Notes under the pieces: generated by a model
Told to the model about the DNA's origin: nothing
Database searches by the model: none
Seen by the model: the letters and a program-made list of their open reading frames with translations, nothing else
Shown: positions 15,661 to 25,697 of the stretch, piece after piece
How the letters are laid out: the number at the start of each line of letters is the position of its first letter
How positions within the stretch are numbered: position 1 is the stretch's first letter
Source: Acidobacteriota bacterium
Lineage (GTDB): Bacteria; Acidobacteriota; Terriglobia; Bryobacterales; Bryobacteraceae
Length of the DNA stretch: 35,789 bases
Assembly: GCA_016213755.1 (NCBI GenBank)
Contig: JACQZT010000244.1
Location: forward strand, 1 to 35,789
Direction: 5' to 3'
Made by a program: the position numbers and the translations under genes

Positions 15661-15746
15661 AATTGCGTACCCGATTAAGAATACGTTACCTGTGCAAGGG
15701 TTGTTCCGGCAACCTGCCGCCGGCTGCCTATGGTAGGATGCGAGGA

Positions 15747-16751
15747 ATGCGGACTTCTCTGGCGATCCTTTTCGCGTTGTGCCTGGCGCTGCCGGCCACG
15801 GCCGCCAACACGCTGAACTTCTACTTCATCGACGTCGAAGGCGGACAGGCGACGCTGATGGTGACCCCGGCCGGGCAGTCCGTTCTGGTGGACGCCGGCT
15901 GGCCCGGATTCAACGGCCGGGACGCCGGCCGGATCGCCGCGGCGGTCAAGCACGCCGGGTTGAAGAAGATCGACTTCCTGCTGGTGACGCACTACCACAC
16001 CGACCATGTGGGCGGCGTTCCGCAACTGCTGGCCAAAGTGCCGGTTACCACTGTGATCGACCACGGCACGAACACCGAGACCGGCAAAGGCGCCGACGCG
16101 CTGTGGAAGGCTTACGAAGAAGCCATCGCCAAGCATAAGCGCATGGTGATCAAGCGGGGCGACGCGCTGCCGTTCAAGGGACTGGAGGCCAAAGTGGTGG
16201 CCGCGCGCGGCGACCTGATCGAGGAGGCGCTTCCCGGGGCGGGCCAGGAAAACCCGCTGTGCGCGGCCGAGCGGCGCCGCGACGAGGACAAGAGCGAGAA
16301 CGCCCGCTCCATCGGCTTCGTGCTCCAGTGGGGCAAGTTCCGCTTCATCGACCTGGCCGACCTGACCTGGAACAAGGAACTCGATCTTTCCTGCCCGAAC
16401 CACAAGATCGGCAAGATCGACGTGTACCTGGTGACGCACCACGGGATGAACATGTCGGGTCCGTCGGCCATGGTGCATGCCCTCAAGCCGCGCGTGGCGA
16501 TCATGAACAACGGCGCCAAGAAGGGCGGATCGGCCGAAACGTTCGAGATCGTCAAGCGCTCGCCGGGACTCGAAGACCTGTGGCAGCTTCACTTCGCGCT
16601 GGCCGCGGGGCAGGAACGCAACTCCCCCGATTCGCTGATTGCCAACGTGGACCCCGTCTGCGAGGGCAAGTGGCTGAAGATGACCGTGGCCTCCAACGGC
16701 TCCTTCACGGTCGAAAACAGCCGGAACGGATTCAAGAAGACCTATAAGTAG
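15747..16751 (+). CDS. Secreted metallo-beta-lactamase-fold hydrolase (ComEC C-terminal-like)
   Basis: A 334-residue protein with a signal peptide (MRTSLAILFALCLALPATA). The metallo-beta-lactamase fold is shown by FIDVEGGQATLM, LVDAGWPG, the metal motif THYHTDHVGG and a late THHGMNMSG. The sequence resembles the hydrolase domain of ComEC-like proteins, many of which are nucleases or phosphodiesterases, but the substrate is unknown here. Start 15747 is chosen over an in-frame ATG at 15738 and over the far-upstream 15663, because the signal peptide begins there and AGGA lies 8 nt before it. It ends 41 nt before the MBOAT gene and may be co-transcribed with it. Confidence 0.85.
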   Translation: MRTSLAILFALCLALPATAANTLNFYFIDVEGGQATLMVTPAGQSVLVDAGWPGFNGRDAGRIAAAVKHAGLKKIDFLLVTHYHTDHVGGVPQLLAKVPVTTVIDHGTNTETGKGADALWKAYEEAIAKHKRMVIKRGDALPFKGLEAKVVAARGDLIEEALPGAGQENPLCAAERRRDEDKSENARSIGFVLQWGKFRFIDLADLTWNKELDLSCPNHKIGKIDVYLVTHHGMNMSGPSAMVHALKPRVAIMNNGAKKGGSAETFEIVKRSPGLEDLWQLHFALAAGQERNSPDSLIANVDPVCEGKWLKMTVASNGSFTVENSRNGFKKTYK

Positions 16752-16792: not shown

Positions 16793-18202
16793 ATGCTGCT
16801 TTCCTCTTCGGTTTACTTTGTGTTTCTCGGGGCGGTCTTTTTCCTTTACTGGCCATTGGCGCGGGTGCGCGCCGCCTCGCTGGCGGTGCTGCTGTTCGCC
16901 AACTACTTCTTCTACGCCAAGTGGGACCTGTTCTACCTGTTCCTGATCCCCGCCGCCTCGACGGCGGACTACTTCATCGCCCTGGGGCTGGGGCGCGCCC
17001 AGGAGCAGCGCCGGCGCAGGCTGCTGGTCGCGCTCAGCGTGGTTCTCAACCTGGGCATCCTGGCGTCGTTCAAATACATGCCGTTCTTGCTGGAGAACTA
17101 CACCCGGCTCACCGGGCTGGCGGCGCCGGCCTGGCACTGGACCTTCCCGCTGGGCATCTCGTTCTACACTTTCCAGTCGCTGACCTACACCATCGACGTG
17201 TACCGGCGCGACGCCAAGGTGGTGCCGAGTTACCTGACGCACCTGACGGCGGTGTCGTTCTTCTGCACCACGCTGGCCGGCCCCATCACGCGAGTGGCGC
17301 AGCTTGCGCCGCAACTGGAGCGCAAGGAAAAAACGCTGGACGCGGCCGCCAGCGGCCGGGCGCTGTTCCTGATCGGGCTGGGCCTGATCAAAAAGCTCAT
17401 GATCGCCGACTACCTGGCGGAGAACCTGGTGAACCGGGTGTTCGACCTGCCTCGCCTGTACACCGCCACCGAGACGCTGATCGGCGTCTATGGGTACGCC
17501 TTGCAGTTGTACTACGACTTTTCGGGCTACACCGACATCGCGCTCGGCTCGGCGCTGTTGCTGGGGTTGAAGCTGCCGGCCAACTTCAACCGCCCCTACG
17601 CGGCCGAGAGCGTGCCGGACTTCTGGCGGCGCTGGCACATCTCGCTTTCCAACTGGCTGCGCGACTACCTGTACTTTTCGCTGCCCGGGCTGCGCTCGAA
17701 GTGGAAGGTCTTCCCGTACGCGAACCTGGTGATCACCATGCTCCTGGGCGGTTTGTGGCACGGCGCAAGCTGGAACTTTGCCGTGTGGGGCCTGCTGCAC
17801 GGCGTGGCGCTGGCGCTGACGCGGCTGTGGCAGACGATGCGCGGCAACCCGAAACCGCGCGCCGCGTGGCGGGCCAGGGCCGCGCGCGTTTTCTTCACCG
17901 TGCAATTTGTCTGCTTCGCGTGGATCTTCTTCCGCGCGCCGGAGTTCTCGGGAGCGATGGAAATTCTGTCGCGCATCGGCTCGCTGAGCGTGTCGTTCGA
18001 CAACGTCTCGGCGCCGTTCGCGCTGGTGATGGCGATCGGGATTCTGGCGCACTACGTGCCGCCGAGGGTTTACGATTTCAGCTTGCGGCTTTACCTGCGG
18101 GCGCCCTTCTATGCGCAGGCGGCGGCGCTGGCGCTGCTGGTGATCGGGCTGCAATATATCGCGGCGACGGGCGCGGCGCCTTTCATCTACACCAGGTTCT
18201 GA
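16793..18202 (+). CDS. MBOAT O-acyltransferase (AlgI/DltB family)
   Basis: A 469-residue polytopic membrane protein with about ten helices. Family signatures are FPLGISFYTFQSLTYTIDVYRR, YYDFSGYTDIALG, FNRPYAAESVPDFWRRWHISL and GGLWHGASWNFAVWGLLHG. The last contains the invariant His (about H323) and WRRWH contains the second conserved His. MBOAT proteins of this group pass acyl groups across or within the membrane to polysaccharides, peptidoglycan or teichoic acids. An in-frame GTG at 16775 would add six residues; the ATG at 16793 gives the usual family N-terminus (MLLSSSVYFVFLG). Its stop is 1 nt before the first SGNH gene, and a DltC-like carrier lies in the same operon. The acceptor is not evident. 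Confidence 0.92.
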   Translation: MLLSSSVYFVFLGAVFFLYWPLARVRAASLAVLLFANYFFYAKWDLFYLFLIPAASTADYFIALGLGRAQEQRRRRLLVALSVVLNLGILASFKYMPFLLENYTRLTGLAAPAWHWTFPLGISFYTFQSLTYTIDVYRRDAKVVPSYLTHLTAVSFFCTTLAGPITRVAQLAPQLERKEKTLDAAASGRALFLIGLGLIKKLMIADYLAENLVNRVFDLPRLYTATETLIGVYGYALQLYYDFSGYTDIALGSALLLGLKLPANFNRPYAAESVPDFWRRWHISLSNWLRDYLYFSLPGLRSKWKVFPYANLVITMLLGGLWHGASWNFAVWGLLHGVALALTRLWQTMRGNPKPRAAWRARAARVFFTVQFVCFAWIFFRAPEFSGAMEILSRIGSLSVSFDNVSAPFALVMAIGILAHYVPPRVYDFSLRLYLRAPFYAQAAALALLVIGLQYIAATGAAPFIYTRF

Positions 18203-18203
18203 C

Positions 18204-19583
18204 ATGGGACGCCGCGAATGGAATCCCAGCCTGCCGCGCCAAGCCACGCTGGCGATTCTCTCTTTCGCGCTCATGGTCGCGGTCCCGGAGTTCGTGCCGG
18301 CGCTCAAGGACTACAAGATTTTCGACTGGCACAGCGCGCCGGCGGTGCTGGACTTCGCTCCGCGGCGCGTTTCGGTGTCGCCCATCGAGGAAGAGCAGCG
18401 GCGCCTGCGGCCAGACGCGGATCCAAACGCCTACGGGTTGCGCCCCCTGGACGAAGCGGGCGGCGCGATGGACCGCTTCTACGCCGCGCTGGTCCGCTCC
18501 GAGGCGCGCGAGGCCGGCGCGGAAGTGAACATCCTGCACTACGGCGACTCGCCGACCACGGCGGACCTGATCACCGCCGACGCGCGCGTGGCCCTGCAAA
18601 AGCAGTTCGGCGACGGGGGGCACGGCTTTTGCCTGATCGCCAAGCCCTGGGCCTGGTACGAACACCGCGGCGTGAGCCTCAGCGGAGGACATTGGATCAC
18701 CGAGCCGGCCAACCAGTCGCAGAACCGCGACGGGTTGTTCGGGCTGGGGGGCGTCTCGTTTCGCGGCGAGGAGGATGCCTGGTCGCGCGTGGTGCTGCGC
18801 GAGACCGGGCACACTTCGGTGGAAGTGGCGTTTCTGAAGATGCCCGGCGGCGGGGCGTTCGAGTTGAAGATCGGGGAGCGCCGCGTCCGGGTGGACACCG
18901 CGGCGCCGGAAGCGGGCCCCGGCTACGCGCGCTTCGAAGCGCCGCCCCAGGAACGCCGCTTCGAGATCCACGTTTTGAGGGGGCCGGTGCGGCTATTCGG
19001 CTATCGTTTCGAGAAGCCCGCCCCGGGGCTGGTGTATCACAGCCTGGGCGTCAACGGCGCTTACGTCGCGGTCCCCTCGCGCATGTTCCGGGAAGAGCAC
19101 TGGGCCGGGCAATTGCGGCATTATGCTCCCAGCCTGGTGGTGATCAACTACGGCACCAACGAAAGCGTCTATCCGAACTTCGTCGACTCCGGTTTCGCTT
19201 TGGAGTTGAAGGAGGTGGTGCGGCGGGTGCGCGCGGCGGTGCCGGAGTCCTCGATTCTGGTCATGAGTCCGATGGACCGGGGCAAGCGCGAATCGACGGG
19301 CGAGATCGGCACGGTGCCGGCTCTGCCGCGGGTGGTGGCCATCGAGCAGCGCGTGGCGCGCGAAAGCGGCTGCGCGTTTTTCAACACGTTCCAGGCCATG
19401 GGCGGCTCGGGAACCATGGGAAGATGGTACCAGGCGGAGCCCCGCCTGGTGAGCGCCGACTTCATCCATCCCATGCCGGCGGGCGCCAGAATCGTGGGCA
19501 ACCTGCTCGCCAAAGCGCTGGTGGATGGATACAACAAGTACAAGCTCGAGCGGATGCGCCCGCGTCTGGCTCAGTGGGATTAA
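18204..19583 (+). CDS. Membrane-anchored SGNH hydrolase-like protein
   Basis: A 459-residue protein with a single N-terminal hydrophobic anchor (about residues 14-34), placing the rest in the periplasm. SGNH blocks are present: HYGDSPTTAD (nucleophile S116), the glycine of FGDGGHG, NYGTNES with the block III Asn, and DFIHPMPAG with the catalytic Asp/His. A beta-rich insertion (about 150-285) separates blocks. It is paralogous to the next gene, sharing FGDGG.GF and GLGG(V/I)S segments. By analogy with DltD and AlgJ/PatB it should act with the MBOAT protein as acyl acceptor or transferase on an envelope polymer; hydrolysis is the alternative. It is spaced 1 nt and 3 nt from its neighbours. Confidence 0.85.
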   Translation: MGRREWNPSLPRQATLAILSFALMVAVPEFVPALKDYKIFDWHSAPAVLDFAPRRVSVSPIEEEQRRLRPDADPNAYGLRPLDEAGGAMDRFYAALVRSEAREAGAEVNILHYGDSPTTADLITADARVALQKQFGDGGHGFCLIAKPWAWYEHRGVSLSGGHWITEPANQSQNRDGLFGLGGVSFRGEEDAWSRVVLRETGHTSVEVAFLKMPGGGAFELKIGERRVRVDTAAPEAGPGYARFEAPPQERRFEIHVLRGPVRLFGYRFEKPAPGLVYHSLGVNGAYVAVPSRMFREEHWAGQLRHYAPSLVVINYGTNESVYPNFVDSGFALELKEVVRRVRAAVPESSILVMSPMDRGKRESTGEIGTVPALPRVVAIEQRVARESGCAFFNTFQAMGGSGTMGRWYQAEPRLVSADFIHPMPAGARIVGNLLAKALVDGYNKYKLERMRPRLAQWD

Positions 19584-19586
19584 CGC

Positions 19587-20900
19587 ATGCGCGCGCTGAT
19601 CCCTCTGGCGGCGCTGGCTGTTTGTGTCGCGGCGTTTCCAGCCCCGGTCGCCTCCGCCAAGAAGAAGAAGACCGTGCGGCGGCGCCCGGCAGTGAGCGCC
19701 AAGGTCCGCGCCGAGGCCCGCCGTGAAATCCTGGACCGGCTCTCGCGGGAGCTCGAATGCCCGCCCGAAAACCCCGCCGCGCTGATCCCCTTTTTCGAGC
19801 GGCTTCGCCGCCAGGAGCGCGGCGAACTCGAGGAACCGGTGCGCATCGTGCAGTTCGGGGATTCGCACACGGCGGCCGACGAATGGACCGGCGCGCTGCG
19901 CGCGCAGTTGCAGCAGAGGTTCGGCGACGGCGGCGCGGGCTTCTCCTTCGCCGGACGGCCGTTCCTGGGCTACCGGCGGCTGGATCTGCGCGGCGGCGCG
20001 ACGCGCGCCTGGACCACCGACGGCCTGGCCGGCAAGCAGAGTTCGGGGCAGAACGGCTTGGGCGGCATCAGCATCTCGACGCGCCTGCCGCGCCAGGAAG
20101 TGTACGTGGTGGCCGGGTGCCGCAACGTGGAGGTCTATTTTCTGCACCAGCCCGGAGGCGGCTCGCTGCTGCTGCACGACAATGGCGCGCCGGTGGAGAG
20201 ATTCACCACGGCGGGCGATTCCGGCCCGGGCTACCATCGCTACACCACCGCGCCGGGATTGCACAAGCTGGAACTGGAGACGCTCGACCGCCTGCCGGTG
20301 CGCCTGTACGGCTGGGTGACCGAGAACGAGCGGGGCGTGACCTACGAGGCGCTGGGCATCAACGGCGCGCAGGCTTCCATCGTTCTTAAGTGGGACGAGG
20401 CGCTGCTGGCGGATCAGTTGGCGCGGCGCAACCCGGCGCTGATCGTGCTGGCCTACGGCACCAACGAAGCCGGCAACCGGGACTGGACCCAGGAAAGCTA
20501 CCGCCTGATGTTCACTGCCTTGATCCAGAGGCTGCGCAAGGCGGCGCCGGCGGCATCCATTCTGGTGGTCGGGCCACCGGACCGGTACCTGCGGTTGCGC
20601 GGCAAGTGGACCCCATACCAGCGCATCGAGATGATTGTGAAGGCGCAGCGGGAGGCCGCGCAGGCGGCGGGTTGCGCGTTCTGGGATCTGCGCGAGAAGA
20701 TGGGCGGGATGGGGTCGATGCGCAAGTGGGTGCTGGCCGGGCTGGCGCAGGCCGATTACGTCCACTTCACCGGCCCCGGTTACCGGCTGCTGGGCGAGAC
20801 CTGCTTTCGCGATCTCATGAGCCAGTACGCGGACTTCGGCAAGCTTCGAGAGGAATTGGCAGGCCAACCGACAAATGGACAAACGAGCCCGAATCATTGA
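19587..20900 (+). CDS. Secreted SGNH hydrolase-like protein
   Basis: A 437-residue protein with a cleavable signal peptide (about residues 1-24, ending VASA) followed by a very basic stretch (KKKKTVRRR). Catalytic blocks: VQFGDSHTAADEW (S93), RFGDGGAGF, LAYGTNEAGN and ADYVHFTGPGY with the Asp/His pair. It is a diverged tandem duplicate of the preceding gene but is soluble rather than anchored. Its 3' end overlaps the carrier-protein gene by 26 nt, so translation is coupled. Likely role: periplasmic acyl transfer or esterase step of the MBOAT system. The last roughly 15 residues lie in the overlap and look unconserved. Confidence 0.85.
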   Translation: MRALIPLAALAVCVAAFPAPVASAKKKKTVRRRPAVSAKVRAEARREILDRLSRELECPPENPAALIPFFERLRRQERGELEEPVRIVQFGDSHTAADEWTGALRAQLQQRFGDGGAGFSFAGRPFLGYRRLDLRGGATRAWTTDGLAGKQSSGQNGLGGISISTRLPRQEVYVVAGCRNVEVYFLHQPGGGSLLLHDNGAPVERFTTAGDSGPGYHRYTTAPGLHKLELETLDRLPVRLYGWVTENERGVTYEALGINGAQASIVLKWDEALLADQLARRNPALIVLAYGTNEAGNRDWTQESYRLMFTALIQRLRKAAPAASILVVGPPDRYLRLRGKWTPYQRIEMIVKAQREAAQAAGCAFWDLREKMGGMGSMRKWVLAGLAQADYVHFTGPGYRLLGETCFRDLMSQYADFGKLREELAGQPTNGQTSPNH

Positions 20901-21111
20901 AATCCTTCGCACGGTATCGAAGAAGGACATTACTCCCGCCGCGGACGAATCGCTGTTCGAGAGCGGACTTCTCGACTCCTTCGCGCTGCCCGACATGGTC
21001 ACCGCGCTGGAGAAGGCGTTCGCGGTGCAGATCCCGGATTCGGACTTGAACCCGCGCAAGTTCGATTCTCTGGAGCGCATCGAGGAATATCTGACCGGGC
21101 GCGGAGTCTGA
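20875..21111 (+). CDS. Dedicated acyl carrier protein, DltC-like
   Basis: A 78-residue carrier protein. S35 in LFESGLLDSFALPDMV is the phosphopantetheine attachment site. This segment is much closer to DltC (recalled as IFEEGLLDSFGTVELL in Bacillus) than to fatty-acid AcpP (GADSLDTVELV). The downstream FAVQIPDSDLNPRKFDSLERIEEYL also follows the DltC pattern. It must be pantetheinylated by a transferase encoded elsewhere. It begins inside the second SGNH gene and ends 2 nt before the KAS III gene. The expected role is to hold an acyl thioester for the MBOAT protein. Confidence 0.88.
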   Translation: MDKRARIIEILRTVSKKDITPAADESLFESGLLDSFALPDMVTALEKAFAVQIPDSDLNPRKFDSLERIEEYLTGRGV

Positions 21112-21113
21112 GC

Positions 21114-22088
21114 ATGGCGTTTCTCGCGGAGTTCGGCGCGTACCTGCCCGAGCGCGTGGTCCCCAACAGCGAGATGGCGGCCCTGGCGGGCTGCGAGGCG
21201 GAGTGGATTCTCAGCGTCTCCGGGATCGAGGAGCGGCGCTTCGCGGCCGAAGGCGAAACCGTGGCCGAACTGGCCGTGAAGGCGGCCGAGGACTGCCTGA
21301 GCCGGGCCGGGGTGGCTGCGAGCGAGCTGGGTTTGGTGCTGCTGGCCAGCGGATCGGCCGAGCGGCGCTTTCCGGGGCCGGCCGGCGAGGTTGCGGCGCG
21401 TCTGGGTCTGGAGGGCGTGCCGGCCATCGACCTTCCCATGGCCAGCGCGGGGGCTTTGTTCGGCCTCCACCTGGCGGCGCGGATGGCCGCCGTGCACGGC
21501 CGCGTGCTGGTGATCGGGGCCGAGAAGATGTCCGGCGTGGTTTTGCGCGAGCCGCGCGAGGCGGGCATCGCGGTGCTGTTCGGAGATGGCGCGGGGGCGT
21601 GCCTGGTCAGTCCGGACGCGGGCCGGGCGCGCATCGTCGATTCGCTGATTTCGAGCGACGGCGCCTTTGCCGGCGACCTGCGGCTGGAGTTTGGCCGGCC
21701 GCTGGAGATGAACGGCCGGGTAGTGATTTTGCAGGCTTCCCGCAAAATTCCGCGCGCCATCGGCGACCTGCTAGCGCGCAACAGTCGCGCGGCGTCCGAG
21801 GTGGGCGTTTTCCTGATGCACCAGGCCAACCTGAACCTGATCGTGCGCGTGGCGAAGGCGCTGGAGGTCCCGCCCGAGCGGTTCTACTCCAACATCCGGC
21901 GCTACGGGAACACCTCCTCGGCTTCGATGCTCATCGCCGCGGCCGAATGGAGCCGGAGCGAGGGCTTCCGCCCCGGGATTCCGGTGGTGCTGGCCGCTTT
22001 CGGCGCCGGTTTCCACTGGGGGGCGATGCTGGTGGAGGGAAGCGACGTGCGGCGCTGTCAAACGCTGCGCCCGGCGATGCCGAACTGA
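21114..22088 (+). CDS. KAS III (FabH) homologue with Cys-to-Ser active site
   Basis: A 324-residue thiolase-fold protein aligned end to end with FabH (FGAYLPERVVPNSEMA; EWILSVSGIEERR; FGDGAGACLV; AFGAGFHWGAMLV). Two catalytic residues are intact: H236 in MHQANLN and N266 in RYGNTSSAS. The position of the nucleophilic Cys (E. coli DVAAACAG) reads DLPMASAG, that is S111 (AGC codon, 21444-21446). Cys-free KAS III homologues such as DpsC act as starter-unit acyltransferases rather than normal condensing enzymes. In this operon it most likely moves an acyl group from CoA to the DltC-like carrier, but carbon-carbon bond formation cannot be excluded. Its 3' end overlaps the convergent vapC by 31 nt. 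Confidence 0.88.
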   Translation: MAFLAEFGAYLPERVVPNSEMAALAGCEAEWILSVSGIEERRFAAEGETVAELAVKAAEDCLSRAGVAASELGLVLLASGSAERRFPGPAGEVAARLGLEGVPAIDLPMASAGALFGLHLAARMAAVHGRVLVIGAEKMSGVVLREPREAGIAVLFGDGAGACLVSPDAGRARIVDSLISSDGAFAGDLRLEFGRPLEMNGRVVILQASRKIPRAIGDLLARNSRAASEVGVFLMHQANLNLIVRVAKALEVPPERFYSNIRRYGNTSSASMLIAAAEWSRSEGFRPGIPVVLAAFGAGFHWGAMLVEGSDVRRCQTLRPAMPN

Positions 22089-22483
22089 GCGGCGGCCGCA
22101 AGCAGGTGGCGATCATTGGTCCAGATCTCAGGCTCGCCCGCATCCAGAGCAGTCGCCAGGTGAATTGCATCGCCTGCGCGCAACGGAACGCTCTTGGGGA
22201 GGCCCCGGATCAAGGTTACCGCCCTCCGCAGCAACGCATCGCTCACGGGTACGAGGTTCCAGAGGTCGCTCTCGGCATGACCTCTGAACACATCCATCAA
22301 TTCGCGGCCCTGCGCCACGGTAAGCGATCCCTCCCGCACATGACGGTGAAAAACAGACGTCACTTCGAGCAGCGCCCAGGAGGAGGAACAAACGTTCGCT
22401 GCCCCGCGAATCAATTTGCGAACCGCGCCCGCATCCGGTTCGTTGACGTAGAACTTGGCGATGTACGCCGAATCGAGATACAT
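22058..22483 (-). CDS. VapC-family PIN-domain toxin
   Basis: A 141-residue PIN-domain ribonuclease. The four acidic metal ligands are recognisable: D4 (MYLDSAY), E40 (ALLEVTS), D105 (AGDAIHL) and D124 (TNDRHLL). It would cleave RNA (tRNA or mRNA) when freed from its antitoxin. The ATG at 22483 follows the antitoxin stop by 2 nt, and the upstream extension of the frame lies over the antitoxin and promoter, so it is not coding. The last 31 nt overlap the end of the convergent KAS III gene. Confidence 0.92.
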   Translation of the reverse strand: MYLDSAYIAKFYVNEPDAGAVRKLIRGAANVCSSSWALLEVTSVFHRHVREGSLTVAQGRELMDVFRGHAESDLWNLVPVSDALLRRAVTLIRGLPKSVPLRAGDAIHLATALDAGEPEIWTNDRHLLAAAAQFGIAGRSV

Positions 22484-22485
22484 CG

Positions 22486-22713
22486 TCAGCGATCTTCTTC
22501 GAGAAAGCGCCCGCTGTCGGCGGTCACGGAAGGAAAGCGCCGCCAGAAATCGGTCATGTCCGGCAGCTTCGGCTTTGCGGTTTTCTTTGAGATGGGGCGC
22601 AACTCCGCCACTGGTTCGCCGCGGCGCGCAATCAAAATCACAGCGCCGTCCGCGGCTTCGCGAACCAACTCGGACGTGCGGATGTGGAGGTCGCGGATGG
22701 AGGCGGTCCTCAT
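22486..22713 (-). CDS. Phd/YefM-family antitoxin
   Basis: A 75-residue antitoxin. The N-terminal part (ASIRDLHIRTSELVREA, then ILIARRGEPVAELRP) is the Phd/YefM DNA-binding fold, and the acidic C-terminal tail (FWRRFPSVTADSGRFLEED) should wrap the PIN toxin encoded next. The ATG at 22713 directly follows the operator palindrome and has no ribosome site, so the transcript is probably leaderless or nearly so. Autorepression by the antitoxin-toxin complex is expected for the family. Confidence 0.9.
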   Translation of the reverse strand: MRTASIRDLHIRTSELVREAADGAVILIARRGEPVAELRPISKKTAKPKLPDMTDFWRRFPSVTADSGRFLEEDR

Positions 22714-22730
22714 GTGCTACATCGTAGCAC
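22714..22730 (-). promoter_or_regulatory. Operator palindrome and extended -10 of the toxin-antitoxin operon
   Basis: gtgctac-atc-gtagcac is a perfect 7-bp inverted repeat with a 3-nt centre, ending at the antitoxin ATG. Reading leftward it contains TGCTACGAT, an extended -10 (TGn plus TACGAT at 22726-22721), which puts the transcription start at about the ATG. No good -35 was seen. Binding of the antitoxin here would block RNA polymerase. Confidence 0.65.
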
Positions 22731-22886
22731 AAACCGTGAGGAGACGCGGCTCTCCTCGGCACAATCTCGACCGGGGGACGGACGGAATCTCCTCCCGTCG
22801 GAGTGGCGGCCGGCGGAAGGCAAATGCCCCCGGCTGCCGGCTGCACCGGGATTGAAATTGGGGATTGAGTAGCCCGTCACCGGAAT

Positions 22887-22908: not shown

Positions 22909-23634
22909 ATGGGCAAGCCTGTCACGCTATTCGTCACCTGCCTGGTCGACCAGCTATTTCCCAAAATCGGCTTGGGCATGGCCGATGTGCTGGAAGGCCT
23001 GGGCTATGACCTCGATTTTCCCGAGGCCCAGACCTGCTGCGGGCAGCCGGCCTTCAACAGCGGGCACTGGGACGAGGCGCGCGACGTGGCGCGCCATTTC
23101 CTGGACGTGTTCCGCGACTCGGAGTACATCGTCTGCCCCTCGGGATCGTGCGCCTCGATGGTGGCGCACCACTACGAGGAACTCTTCGCGGCCGAATCCG
23201 GGCGGCTCGACCAGGTGCGCGCGATCAAACCCCGTGTGTGGGAGTTTTCGCGGTTCCTGCTCGAGGTGGCCCAGGCGGAAGACCTGGGCGCGCGGCTGGA
23301 CCGGGTGGTCACCTTCCACGACAGTTGCCACGGGCTGCGCGAGCTGCGCATTAAGGAAGGCCCGCGCCGCCTGTTGAGCCATGTGCGGGGACTCCAGTTG
23401 CGCGAAATGGACGCGGCCGAAGAGTGCTGCGGCTTCGGCGGTACCTTCTCGGTGAAGTTCCCGGAGCTCTCCGGCGGCATGGCGCGCACCAAGATCGAAT
23501 CCATCCTCCGCACCGGCGCGGACACGGTGGTGGGGCTCGACTCGAGTTGTCTGATGCAGATCGAGGGCGCGCTGCGCCGCGCCGGCTCGCCGGTGCGCAC
23601 CATGCACCTGGCCGAGGTGCTCGCATCCCGTTGA
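22909..23634 (+). CDS. lutA: Lactate utilisation protein A, (Fe-S)-binding
   Basis: A 241-residue protein with two CCG domains: TCCGQPAFNSG (about 43-53) and ECCGFGGTFSVKFPE (about 172-186). These Cys-rich motifs bind a non-cubane iron-sulfur cluster, as in heterodisulfide reductase subunit B and LutA/LldE. With LutB and LutC it forms the L-lactate dehydrogenase complex that oxidises lactate to pyruvate without LldD. It is first in a lutA-lutB-lutC run, with 7 nt to lutB. No lactate permease or GntR-type LutR regulator is visible beside it. Confidence 0.93.
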   Translation: MGKPVTLFVTCLVDQLFPKIGLGMADVLEGLGYDLDFPEAQTCCGQPAFNSGHWDEARDVARHFLDVFRDSEYIVCPSGSCASMVAHHYEELFAAESGRLDQVRAIKPRVWEFSRFLLEVAQAEDLGARLDRVVTFHDSCHGLRELRIKEGPRRLLSHVRGLQLREMDAAEECCGFGGTFSVKFPELSGGMARTKIESILRTGADTVVGLDSSCLMQIEGALRRAGSPVRTMHLAEVLASR

Positions 23635-23641
23635 GGCGCCC

Positions 23642-25063
23642 ATGAACGCACCCGAGAAGATCCGGACAACTCTGGCCAACGCGGACCTGCAAGCGGCCAT
23701 CTACGCCGCCACCGGCCGGCTCATGAAAAAGCGCGCGGCGGTGGTGGGTCCGGAAATCCTGCCAGACTACCAGGAGTTGCGCACCCAGGCCGCCGCGGTC
23801 AAGCGCCACACGCTCGAGAACCTGGACCACTACCTGGAACAACTGGAAGCCAACGTCACGCGGCGCGGCGGCAAGGTGGTTTGGTGCAAAGACGGCGCCG
23901 AAGTGGCCGGGTTTCTGACCCGGCTGGCGCGGGAGAAAAGCGCGCGCCTCATCGTGAAGTCCAAGTCGATGACCACCGAGGAAATCGACCTGAACGAAGA
24001 ACTCGAGCACGCCGGCATCGAGACGGTCGAAACCGACCTGGGCGAGTACATCATCCAACTGGCGCGCCAGAAACCCTACCACATCGTGGCCCCGGCGCTG
24101 CACATGACGCGCTACGAGGTGGCCGACATCTTCACCGAAAAGCTCGGCGTCGAGCGCGAGACGGTGATCGAGAAGCAGACCATGCTTGCGCGACGGGTGC
24201 TGCGCGAGAAGTTCCTGGCCGCCGACATCGGCGTCAGCGGGGCGAATTTCCTGGTGGCCGACGACGGCGCCGTGGTGTTGTGCACCAACGAAGGCAACGC
24301 GCGGCTGACCACCACCGCGCCGCGCATACACGTGGCCGTGGCGGGAATCGAGAAGCTAGTTCCGCGCGCCGCCGACCTGGCGGTGTTTCTGAAACTGCTG
24401 GGCCGCAGCGCCACCGGCCAGCCGCTGACCGTGTACACCTCGTTTCTGAGCGGGCCGCGGCGCGAGGGCGAAATCGACGGCCCGGAAGAGTTCTACCTGG
24501 TGCTGCTCGACAAGGGCCGCACCGAGGTGCTGGCCGATCCCGAGCGGCGGCAGTCGCTCTGCTGCATCCGCTGCGGGGCGTGCCTGAACCATTGCCCGGT
24601 GTACCGCAAGATCGGCGGGCACAATTATCCGTGGGTCTATTCGGGGCCGCTGGGCGCGGTCATCGCGCCGATGTATCAGGGCATGATGCGCGACCCCTGG
24701 CTGCCTTTCGCCTCCAGCCTGTGCGGCGCCTGCGCCGACGTCTGCCCAGTGAAGATCGAACTGCCCAAGCTGCTGCTGGAGCATCGCGAACAGATCGTGC
24801 GCATCCAGACCCAGGAAGGCCGGAACCGGCTGGAGAAACTGGGGTTCCGGCTGTGGGCCTGGCTGATGCGCCATCCCAAGCTGTTTGAGTTGGCGGGCTC
24901 CGCCGGGTCCGTTCTCGCGCCCGAAAGCGGCGGCTGGCTCGAACGCCTGCCCGGCCTGCTCAACGCCGGGCCGGCCCGGGCCTGGACCAGCCAGCGCGAC
25001 CTGCCCGCCCCGGCCGCGCGCAGTTTCCGCCAGCTCTGGCGCGAGCGCCAGGCAAGGAGTTAA
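23642..25063 (+). CDS. lutB: Lactate utilisation protein B, iron-sulfur subunit
   Basis: A 473-residue protein. The N-terminal LUD domain (about 60-290) contains SKSMTTEEIDLNEELE and ITGVSGANFLVADDGAVVL-like segments. Two [4Fe-4S] clusters follow: C308-x2-C311-x2-C314-x3-C318 and C361-x2-C364-x3-C368. A C-terminal LutB-type tail ends the protein. It should pass electrons from lactate oxidation onward to quinone or another acceptor. Its TAA stop is 1 nt before the GTG start of lutC, with AAGGAG inside its last codons serving lutC. Confidence 0.94.
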   Translation: MNAPEKIRTTLANADLQAAIYAATGRLMKKRAAVVGPEILPDYQELRTQAAAVKRHTLENLDHYLEQLEANVTRRGGKVVWCKDGAEVAGFLTRLAREKSARLIVKSKSMTTEEIDLNEELEHAGIETVETDLGEYIIQLARQKPYHIVAPALHMTRYEVADIFTEKLGVERETVIEKQTMLARRVLREKFLAADIGVSGANFLVADDGAVVLCTNEGNARLTTTAPRIHVAVAGIEKLVPRAADLAVFLKLLGRSATGQPLTVYTSFLSGPRREGEIDGPEEFYLVLLDKGRTEVLADPERRQSLCCIRCGACLNHCPVYRKIGGHNYPWVYSGPLGAVIAPMYQGMMRDPWLPFASSLCGACADVCPVKIELPKLLLEHREQIVRIQTQEGRNRLEKLGFRLWAWLMRHPKLFELAGSAGSVLAPESGGWLERLPGLLNAGPARAWTSQRDLPAPAARSFRQLWRERQARS

Positions 25064-25064
25064 T

Positions 25065-25697
25065 GTGTCGCGCGAAATCATCCTCGAAAAGGTGCGCTCC
25101 GCGCTGGGCCGCAGCCCCGGCCAGCCGCCGGCCGAGGCGCCCGCGACGCGCCTGCGCATTCCCGAGGTCGCCGTCGAAGAGCGCCTCGATAGTTTCCGCC
25201 GCTCCCTGGAAGCGCTGGCGGGCAAGTTCTACCTGGCTTCCTCGCGGGAGGACGCCCGCCGCTACGTTGCCGCGCTGATCGAAGGCCGCACGGCGGTGGC
25301 CTCCAATAGCCCTTACCTGGCCGAATGCGGCATCGCCGGGTTGCCGGGAGTGCGGACCGGGTTCGCGCGCGAAGCGGAGTTGCGCGAGGCGTGCGCCTCG
25401 GCCGGCGCCGGCGTCACCAGCGCCGATTATGCGCTGGCCGATACCGGAACCCTGGTGCTGCTTTCCTCGGCGCGCGAGGCGCGCATGGTGTCGCTGCTGC
25501 CGCCCCTGCACGTGGCGGTGATCCCGCGCGAAATCGTCCTGACGACGCTGGACGAACTGTTAACCTTGCTGCCCTGTCCGGCCGATGCCACGAGTTCCAT
25601 GCTGCTGATCACCGGCCCCAGCCGCACCGCCGACATCGAGCAGATATTGGTGCGAGGCGTGCACGGCCCGGGCGAGGTCCACGTCGTCGTGATATAA
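25065..25697 (+). CDS. lutC: Lactate utilisation protein C
   Basis: A 210-residue LUD-domain protein. The segments GAGVTSADYALADTGTLVLLSS, LPPLHVAVIP and ITGPSRTADIEQILVRGVHGPGEVHVVV-type ending are typical of LutC/YkgG. The start is a GTG at 25065 with AAGGAG 5 nt upstream. The same frame is open further 5', but that part lies in another frame of lutB and does not resemble the family. It completes the lutABC operon. Confidence 0.93.
   Translation: MSREIILEKVRSALGRSPGQPPAEAPATRLRIPEVAVEERLDSFRRSLEALAGKFYLASSREDARRYVAALIEGRTAVASNSPYLAECGIAGLPGVRTGFAREAELREACASAGAGVTSADYALADTGTLVLLSSAREARMVSLLPPLHVAVIPREIVLTTLDELLTLLPCPADATSSMLLITGPSRTADIEQILVRGVHGPGEVHVVVI

Follow-up and report, generated by a model that had tools for sequence, protein, structure and literature searches.

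The last gene of an operon in the window, i.e., the whole 35,789-nucleotide stretch of DNA analysed here, from the Acidobacteriota, bacteria of soil and water, encodes a KAS III (FabH-fold) homologue in which Ser stands in place of the active-site Cys, and this Ser is fixed throughout the clade to which the protein belongs (hereafter the Ser clade). Its companions in the operon are an MBOAT membrane O-acyltransferase, two SGNH proteins and a DltC-like acyl carrier protein (ACP). We put at just over one half the probability that the KAS III homologue loads this ACP by acyl-Ser transfer, the acyl group probably being acetyl, on behalf of an ACP-fed MBOAT-SGNH system of envelope acylation.

A FabH fold with a Ser-His-Asn active site

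The protein carries the Pfam domains ACP_syn_III and ACP_syn_III_C, and a phmmer search with it as query matched 66 PDB sequences, with FabHs at the top. Its AlphaFold model (pLDDT 92, pTM 0.91) presents the thiolase fold, and the best Foldseek match of this model is E. coli FabH (TM 0.90). Ser111 lies in AIDLPMASAGALFG (translation of 21114-22088), within DLPMASAG in the KAS III reading frame, and aligns with the FabH active-site Cys in both sequence and structure alignments. His236 and Asn266 align with FabH His244 and Asn274 and are invariant across the Ser clade, giving a catalytic set of Ser111-His236-Asn266. The gene runs without frameshift or stop. The first-pass annotation had described this same picture, i.e., an AGC codon placing Ser at the catalytic Cys position, an intact His236 and Asn266, a complete fold and a gene that is not decayed, and each part is borne out by the above, the last also by the selection and conservation data given below. 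The query further carries a C-terminal extension (DVRRCQTLRPAMPN, 22046-22088) that is missing in its relatives, has low model confidence and overlaps the adjacent PIN gene, possibly reflecting a shifted stop codon.

The protein differs from FabH in several respects. The curated FabH models were not reached (TIGR00747, 215 bits vs a cut-off of 292; PRK09352, 245.5 vs 249), and the nucleophilic Cys of the FabH class is absent, with Ser111 in 44/44 clade members; the KSQ-type Gln is likewise absent from this position. In FabH, Lys214 and Arg249 dock the ACP, and the His and Asn serve malonyl decarboxylation and condensation. Both docking residues are replaced clade-wide, by Leu206 and Asn241, respectively. 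Moreover, Arg36 and Thr28, which hold CoA in FabH (PMC4606726), have both been lost across the Ser clade, and the query has Ala for Arg151, suggesting that CoA may not be the donor. Thus, where the first-pass annotation proposed an acyl-CoA:carrier acyltransferase, carrier loading stands as the most economical role, yet the acyl-CoA donor is put in doubt by the CoA contacts that were not kept. The FabH Trp32 and Phe87 positions are mostly kept; however, part of family f2 (L032, L088, L107 and L111) has also lost Trp32, which stacks on the CoA adenine, and some sequences (L089, L108, L109 and L111) have Cys or Ser in place of Phe87, changes suggesting either a further drift from CoA binding or an altered acyl pocket.

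A parallel had also been drawn with DpsC, which self-acylates in its Ser-type form and then transfers the acyl group to its own ACP, using a Ser118-His297-Asp302 triad (PMC12664062). The likeness to DpsC and AknE2, the Ser-type priming ketosynthases, holds for the Ser at the nucleophile position and, presumably, for the passing of the acyl group to a cognate ACP. It does not extend to the triad, which is Ser-His-Asn here: the DpsC-type His at the FabH Asn position is absent, Asn266 being invariant, and the counterpart of Asp302 is an invariant Ser271 (a position placed by offset, not aligned to DpsC). Kinship is likewise remote, with phmmer values of about 6e-7 for the DpsC chain vs 3e-48 for FabH, indicating that the Ser most likely arose independently. 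A DpsC relative was therefore excluded by sequence kinship and triad.

Fixation of the serine and the Cys sister clade

A scan for homologues across 84,980 species genomes gave at least 80 loci. Of the matches listed, 31 lie at 50-68% identity (L003-L033); these relatives all bear titles of Acidobacteriota or groups within (31/31) and all have Ser (31/31). A further 49, distant KAS IIIs at 30-40% identity, all have Cys (49/49); no Ser homologue titled outside Acidobacteriota was among the matches listed in this cross-phylum scan. In a sample of 396 Acidobacteriota genomes, a profile search recovered the Ser type from 13, belonging to five families, with Ser in every case (13/13) and with scores (at least 345 bits) well separated from all others (at most 266 bits). 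The 31 public-genome loci, 12 from this sample and the window make up the 44 clade members, and the alignment of homologues that the first-pass annotation had proposed as a check on fixation found Ser in all of them. A tblastn search of plasmids returned only FabH-like matches below 38% identity, and a PHROGs search returned no match.

The Ser codon is AGC in 37 of the 44 sequences, AGT in six and TCC in one. Given that the Cys relatives L112 and L098 encode Cys as TGC and that the other conserved serines of the protein mostly use TCN codons, this pattern fits a single TGC-to-AGC step. Pairwise dN/dS values (nine pairs, 0.023-0.20) indicate purifying selection. The retention of Ser, and not Ala, Gln or Gly, over a long divergence, with one switch to TCC, makes a nucleophile likelier than a mere loss of Cys. 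A decayed gene or sequencing artefact was excluded by the 44/44 Ser and the low dN/dS. We likewise give very little credence to a Ser-tolerant but ordinary FabH, or to a paralogue in decay that serves no specific role: annotation would probably say FabH, as the near-miss with PRK09352 illustrates, yet the Ser is fixed, dN/dS is low, the operon is conserved, and a second KAS III in the same genome is a separate gene of the Cys type.

A sister clade retains Cys. In L112 (G063), L167 (G339) and L168 (G075), the order SGNH-MBOAT-SGNH-ACP-KAS III is found with Cys in the motifs DVRMACCN, DLRAACAT and DIRAACCN, respectively; L173 (G383) and L098 (G291) are related to this group, with ACP, KAS or MBOAT arranged differently. 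At the FabH Arg249 and Lys214 positions, both clades have Asn and Leu, respectively. In a rooted tree, they are united with FabH outside (100/99) and each is monophyletic (Cys 100/98, Ser 100/99), with two changes in all. A single Cys-to-Ser change occurred within the MBOAT-associated KAS family and was then fixed. As the Cys sister sits in the same operon type, the operon role is older than the Ser; most likely, KAS III was already part of the MBOAT-ACP system when one lineage switched Cys to Ser and kept it. The first-pass annotation had named Cys homologues in the same gene context as evidence that would speak against it. None occurs inside the Ser clade, but L112, L167 and L168 (36-40% identity) do have Cys, implying that the role does not require Ser.

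The operon and its co-occurrence with the Ser-type KAS III

The genes are ordered MBOAT-SGNH-SGNH-ACP-KAS III (Table 1). Against the TIGR04091 DltB model the MBOAT scores 180 bits, under the cut-off of 375, and it matches DltB structures at 8e-29. It ends in the FxYxxF acyl-shuttle motif that PatA-type MBOATs carry (defined in PMC12148441). The residues of the DltB-DltC contact are partly kept in it, namely Lys312 and one hydrophobic position only. The first SGNH protein is by its sequence a probable acyltransferase partner of the MBOAT, and the second a putative esterase or second transferase; both match 4k3u, a meningococcal Ape1 esterase, and the second also matches 8gld/8gkd at about 1e-14. 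The SGNH catalytic motifs (Ser, Asp-His) are kept in nearly all loci. The ACP matches two DltC models (7e-12 and 4e-6), in both cases under the equivalog cut-off.

Table 1. Features of the operon and of its KAS III active site (positions in the window)
Feature	Position	Strand	Basis
MBOAT (DltB/PatA-like) membrane O-acyltransferase, 475 aa	16775..18202	+	Pfam MBOAT 3.6e-25
MBOAT catalytic His329 codon (WHGASW)	17759..17761	+	aligned to DltB WHG His; conserved in relatives
MBOAT C-terminal FIYTRF (FxYxxF acyl-shuttle motif)	18182..18199	+	in 27/27 relatives
SGNH/GDSL protein 1, N-terminal hydrophobic segment, GDSP/GTNE/DFIH	18204..19583	+	Pfam Lipase_GDSL_2 4.4e-14; 4k3u 7e-22
SGNH/GDSL protein 2, signal-peptide-like N-terminus, GDSH/GTNE/DYVH	19587..20900	+	Pfam 1.3e-16; 4k3u 1.6e-33
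DltC-like acyl carrier protein, 78 aa	20875..21111	+	Pfam PP-binding 1e-7; PDB DltC 8e-9
ACP Ser35 codon (LDSF), predicted phosphopantetheine attachment site	20977..20979	+	invariant in 13/13 aligned ACPs
KAS III (FabH-fold) homologue with Ser at the nucleophile position, 324 aa	21114..22088	+	translation, Pfam, AlphaFold/Foldseek
Ser111 codon (AGC), aligned with FabH Cys112	21444..21446	+	translation and alignments
His236 codon (FabH His244)	21819..21821	+	alignment
Asn241 codon (FabH Arg249), Asn throughout the MBOAT-associated family	21834..21836	+	
Asn266 codon (FabH Asn274)	21909..21911	+	alignment

No reductase gene was found in the operon. This bears on the possibility that the enzyme condenses with Ser, making a beta-ketoacyl-ACP (e.g., acetoacetyl-ACP) that would then be reduced or transferred as such. 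The kept fold and His/Asn pair would suit such a reaction, and the Cys sister clade may itself condense; however, with the reductase missing, the KAS III relatives found outside the clade all of the Cys type, and FabH Lys214 and Arg249 replaced, we regard Ser-based condensation as distinctly unlikely.

The genome that holds the operon is 94% complete (contamination 6.5%). In it we found no other MBOAT and no DltA above cut-off (best 86 vs 560 bits), and hence no other known loader; fabD is present. An ACP gene lies directly upstream of KAS III in 29/31 public loci among the matches listed and in 12/12 sampled genomes, the two exceptions being L003, where the operon is present with no adjacent ACP, and L008, at a contig edge. 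Across the 396 genomes, the dedicated ACP (at least 77 bits) and the Ser-type KAS III occur in an identical set of 13, and an MBOAT orthologue (E 1e-85 or better) is found in 12 of these 13 vs 29 of 396 overall (hypergeometric 2.5e-14, uncorrected for kinship). The 13th, G100, has a more distant MBOAT nearby, within a sugar-gene cluster. In two genomes, G289 and G187, one contig holds the ACP-KAS pair and another the MBOAT-SGNH-SGNH operon, showing that the association is not only one of linkage.

These data also bear on a thioesterase or editing role, in which the enzyme would strip wrong acyl groups from the ACP while AcpS charges the apo-ACP directly from acyl-CoA. There are precedents for both halves: ChlB3, a KAS III-like acyltransferase, hydrolyses acyl-SNAC in vitro (PMC9573744), and AcpS has been used in vitro to make acetyl-ACP from acetyl-CoA (PMC8666670). 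Yet one-to-one co-occurrence with the ACP is not needed for editing alone, and the genome yielded no other loader, making this role highly improbable.

Several further genes flank the operon. Upstream of the MBOAT, 15663-16751 encodes an exported metallo-beta-lactamase-fold protein (ComEC-like); such a protein is also found near the MBOAT operon in G187 (L172 12079-12975), and may therefore belong to the locus. Convergent with the KAS III gene, and overlapping its 3' end by ~30 bp, are a PIN-domain protein (22058-22846, minus strand; Pfam PIN 7e-12) and, upstream of it, a small Phd/VapB-like ORF (22486-22713, minus strand), together a probable VapBC-type toxin-antitoxin pair. Downstream, 22909-25697 holds LutABC-like lactate-utilisation genes (Cys-rich CCG, iron-sulfur LUD and LUD-domain proteins).

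Probable loading of the ACP and relation to known systems

ACP loading is the simplest role consistent with the operon, the co-occurrence, the lack of DltA and the occurrence of the enzyme in a Cys as well as a Ser form. From these we infer the following course, including its donor, acyl group and acceptor. With acetyl-CoA or an acyl-ACP as donor, Ser111 would accept the acyl group, which is probably acetyl, and hand it on to the adjacent ACP, at the phosphopantetheine arm borne by Ser35. The MBOAT would then receive it from the ACP and carry it across the membrane via the C-terminal Tyr of FIYTRF, and an SGNH protein would place it on a polymer of the envelope, which the system would thereby esterify. 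Several observations sit uneasily with this scheme: a DpsC-type Asp/His pair for activating the Ser is missing, the strict retention of His236 and Asn266 would be needless for pure acyl transfer, the CoA contacts are lost (Arg36, Thr28; Arg151 being Ala in the query), the Cys sister clade, in an operon of the same type, manages without Ser, the residues of the DltB-DltC contact are only partly kept, and in L003 the operon lacks an adjacent ACP.

A live, though unlikely, rival would reach the same product at the same place in the pathway by other chemistry. Here, FabD would malonylate the dedicated ACP, and the Ser-His-Asn enzyme, a poor acyl-enzyme former, would decarboxylate the malonyl-ACP to acetyl-ACP for the MBOAT. 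Ketosynthases that lack the nucleophilic Cys (KSQ, FabH C112S) still decarboxylate, and the invariance of His236 and Asn266, the presence of fabD and the loss of the CoA-holding residues, expected with an ACP-bound substrate, all agree with such a reaction. There is also a precedent in the malonyl-ACP decarboxylases of a different fold (Mad), whose acetyl-ACP feeds envelope synthesis in Proteobacteria (PMC8666670). However, any non-Cys residue would serve for decarboxylation, yet Ser is found in 44/44, and an operon of the same type is found in the Cys sister clade. Both chemistries are compatible with the sequence; acyl-Ser transfer is favoured since only Ser was seen, and never Ala or Gln.

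Three parts of this scheme are already known in themselves: MBOAT-SGNH acylation, DltC-like carriers and KAS III acyltransferases. The Dlt system (DltABCDX) shares with the operon a DltB-like MBOAT, a DltC-like carrier and an SGNH partner, but charges its carrier with DltA and has its shuttle Tyr on a separate DltX, whereas here DltA is missing and the Tyr is on the MBOAT. Conversely, PatA-PatB-Ape1 peptidoglycan O-acetylation (with AlgI/WssH) resembles it in an FxYxxF-tailed MBOAT followed by two Ape1/PatB-type SGNH proteins, but these systems have no carrier and are taken to use acyl-CoA (PMC12148441), unlike the ACP and KAS III found here. ChlB3 and CerJ likewise use a KAS III fold for acyl transfer and not condensation, but with a Cys-His-Asp triad and in natural-product pathways. 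The enzyme further differs from FabH in its setting next to an MBOAT and an ACP.

Apart from Dlt, MBOAT-SGNH pathways are stated to have no carrier protein (PMC12148441), a rule that the operon, present in several Acidobacteriota families, appears to break by joining a Dlt carrier to a Pat-type fused shuttle. A literature search, whose scope was papers outside subscription, found no relevant paper on KAS III with MBOAT or O-acetylation, nor the combination of MBOAT-SGNH, DltC-like carrier and KAS III without DltA, and KAS III loading of a carrier would be a supply route not described for envelope acylation systems. We see an even chance that it represents a third MBOAT-SGNH feed, next to direct acyl-CoA (Pat/Alg) and the DltA-charged carrier (Dlt), in which the ACP is loaded by a repurposed KAS III that in one Acidobacteriota lineage exchanged Cys for Ser and, with a Ser-His-Asn site, no longer condenses. 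Annotation pipelines would probably call such genes FabH, making the pathway easily overlooked. The natural Cys and Ser sister clades in the same operon type make the role of Ser in a KAS III site directly testable.

A strictly MBOAT-linked role is tempered by a subclade, L023, L027, L028, L031, L110 and L114, in which the ACP-KAS pair lies beside flagellar, PheST or sugar genes. In L114 (255-7730), L023 (4266-7924) and L027 (4310-7927), the Ser-type pair is found beside flagellin, FliD-like, FliW, CsrA and nucleotide-sugar genes; such pairs may have moved away from the MBOAT operon while still loading for it, or may have been put to a second use, the acylation of flagellin or of a glycan. In L104 (2120-10885), the Ser-type ACP-KAS III and an MBOAT lie in a sugar cluster with aminotransferase, CBS-nucleotidyltransferase, SAT-like acyltransferase and WbpG/HisH-like genes, hinting at a glycan acceptor.
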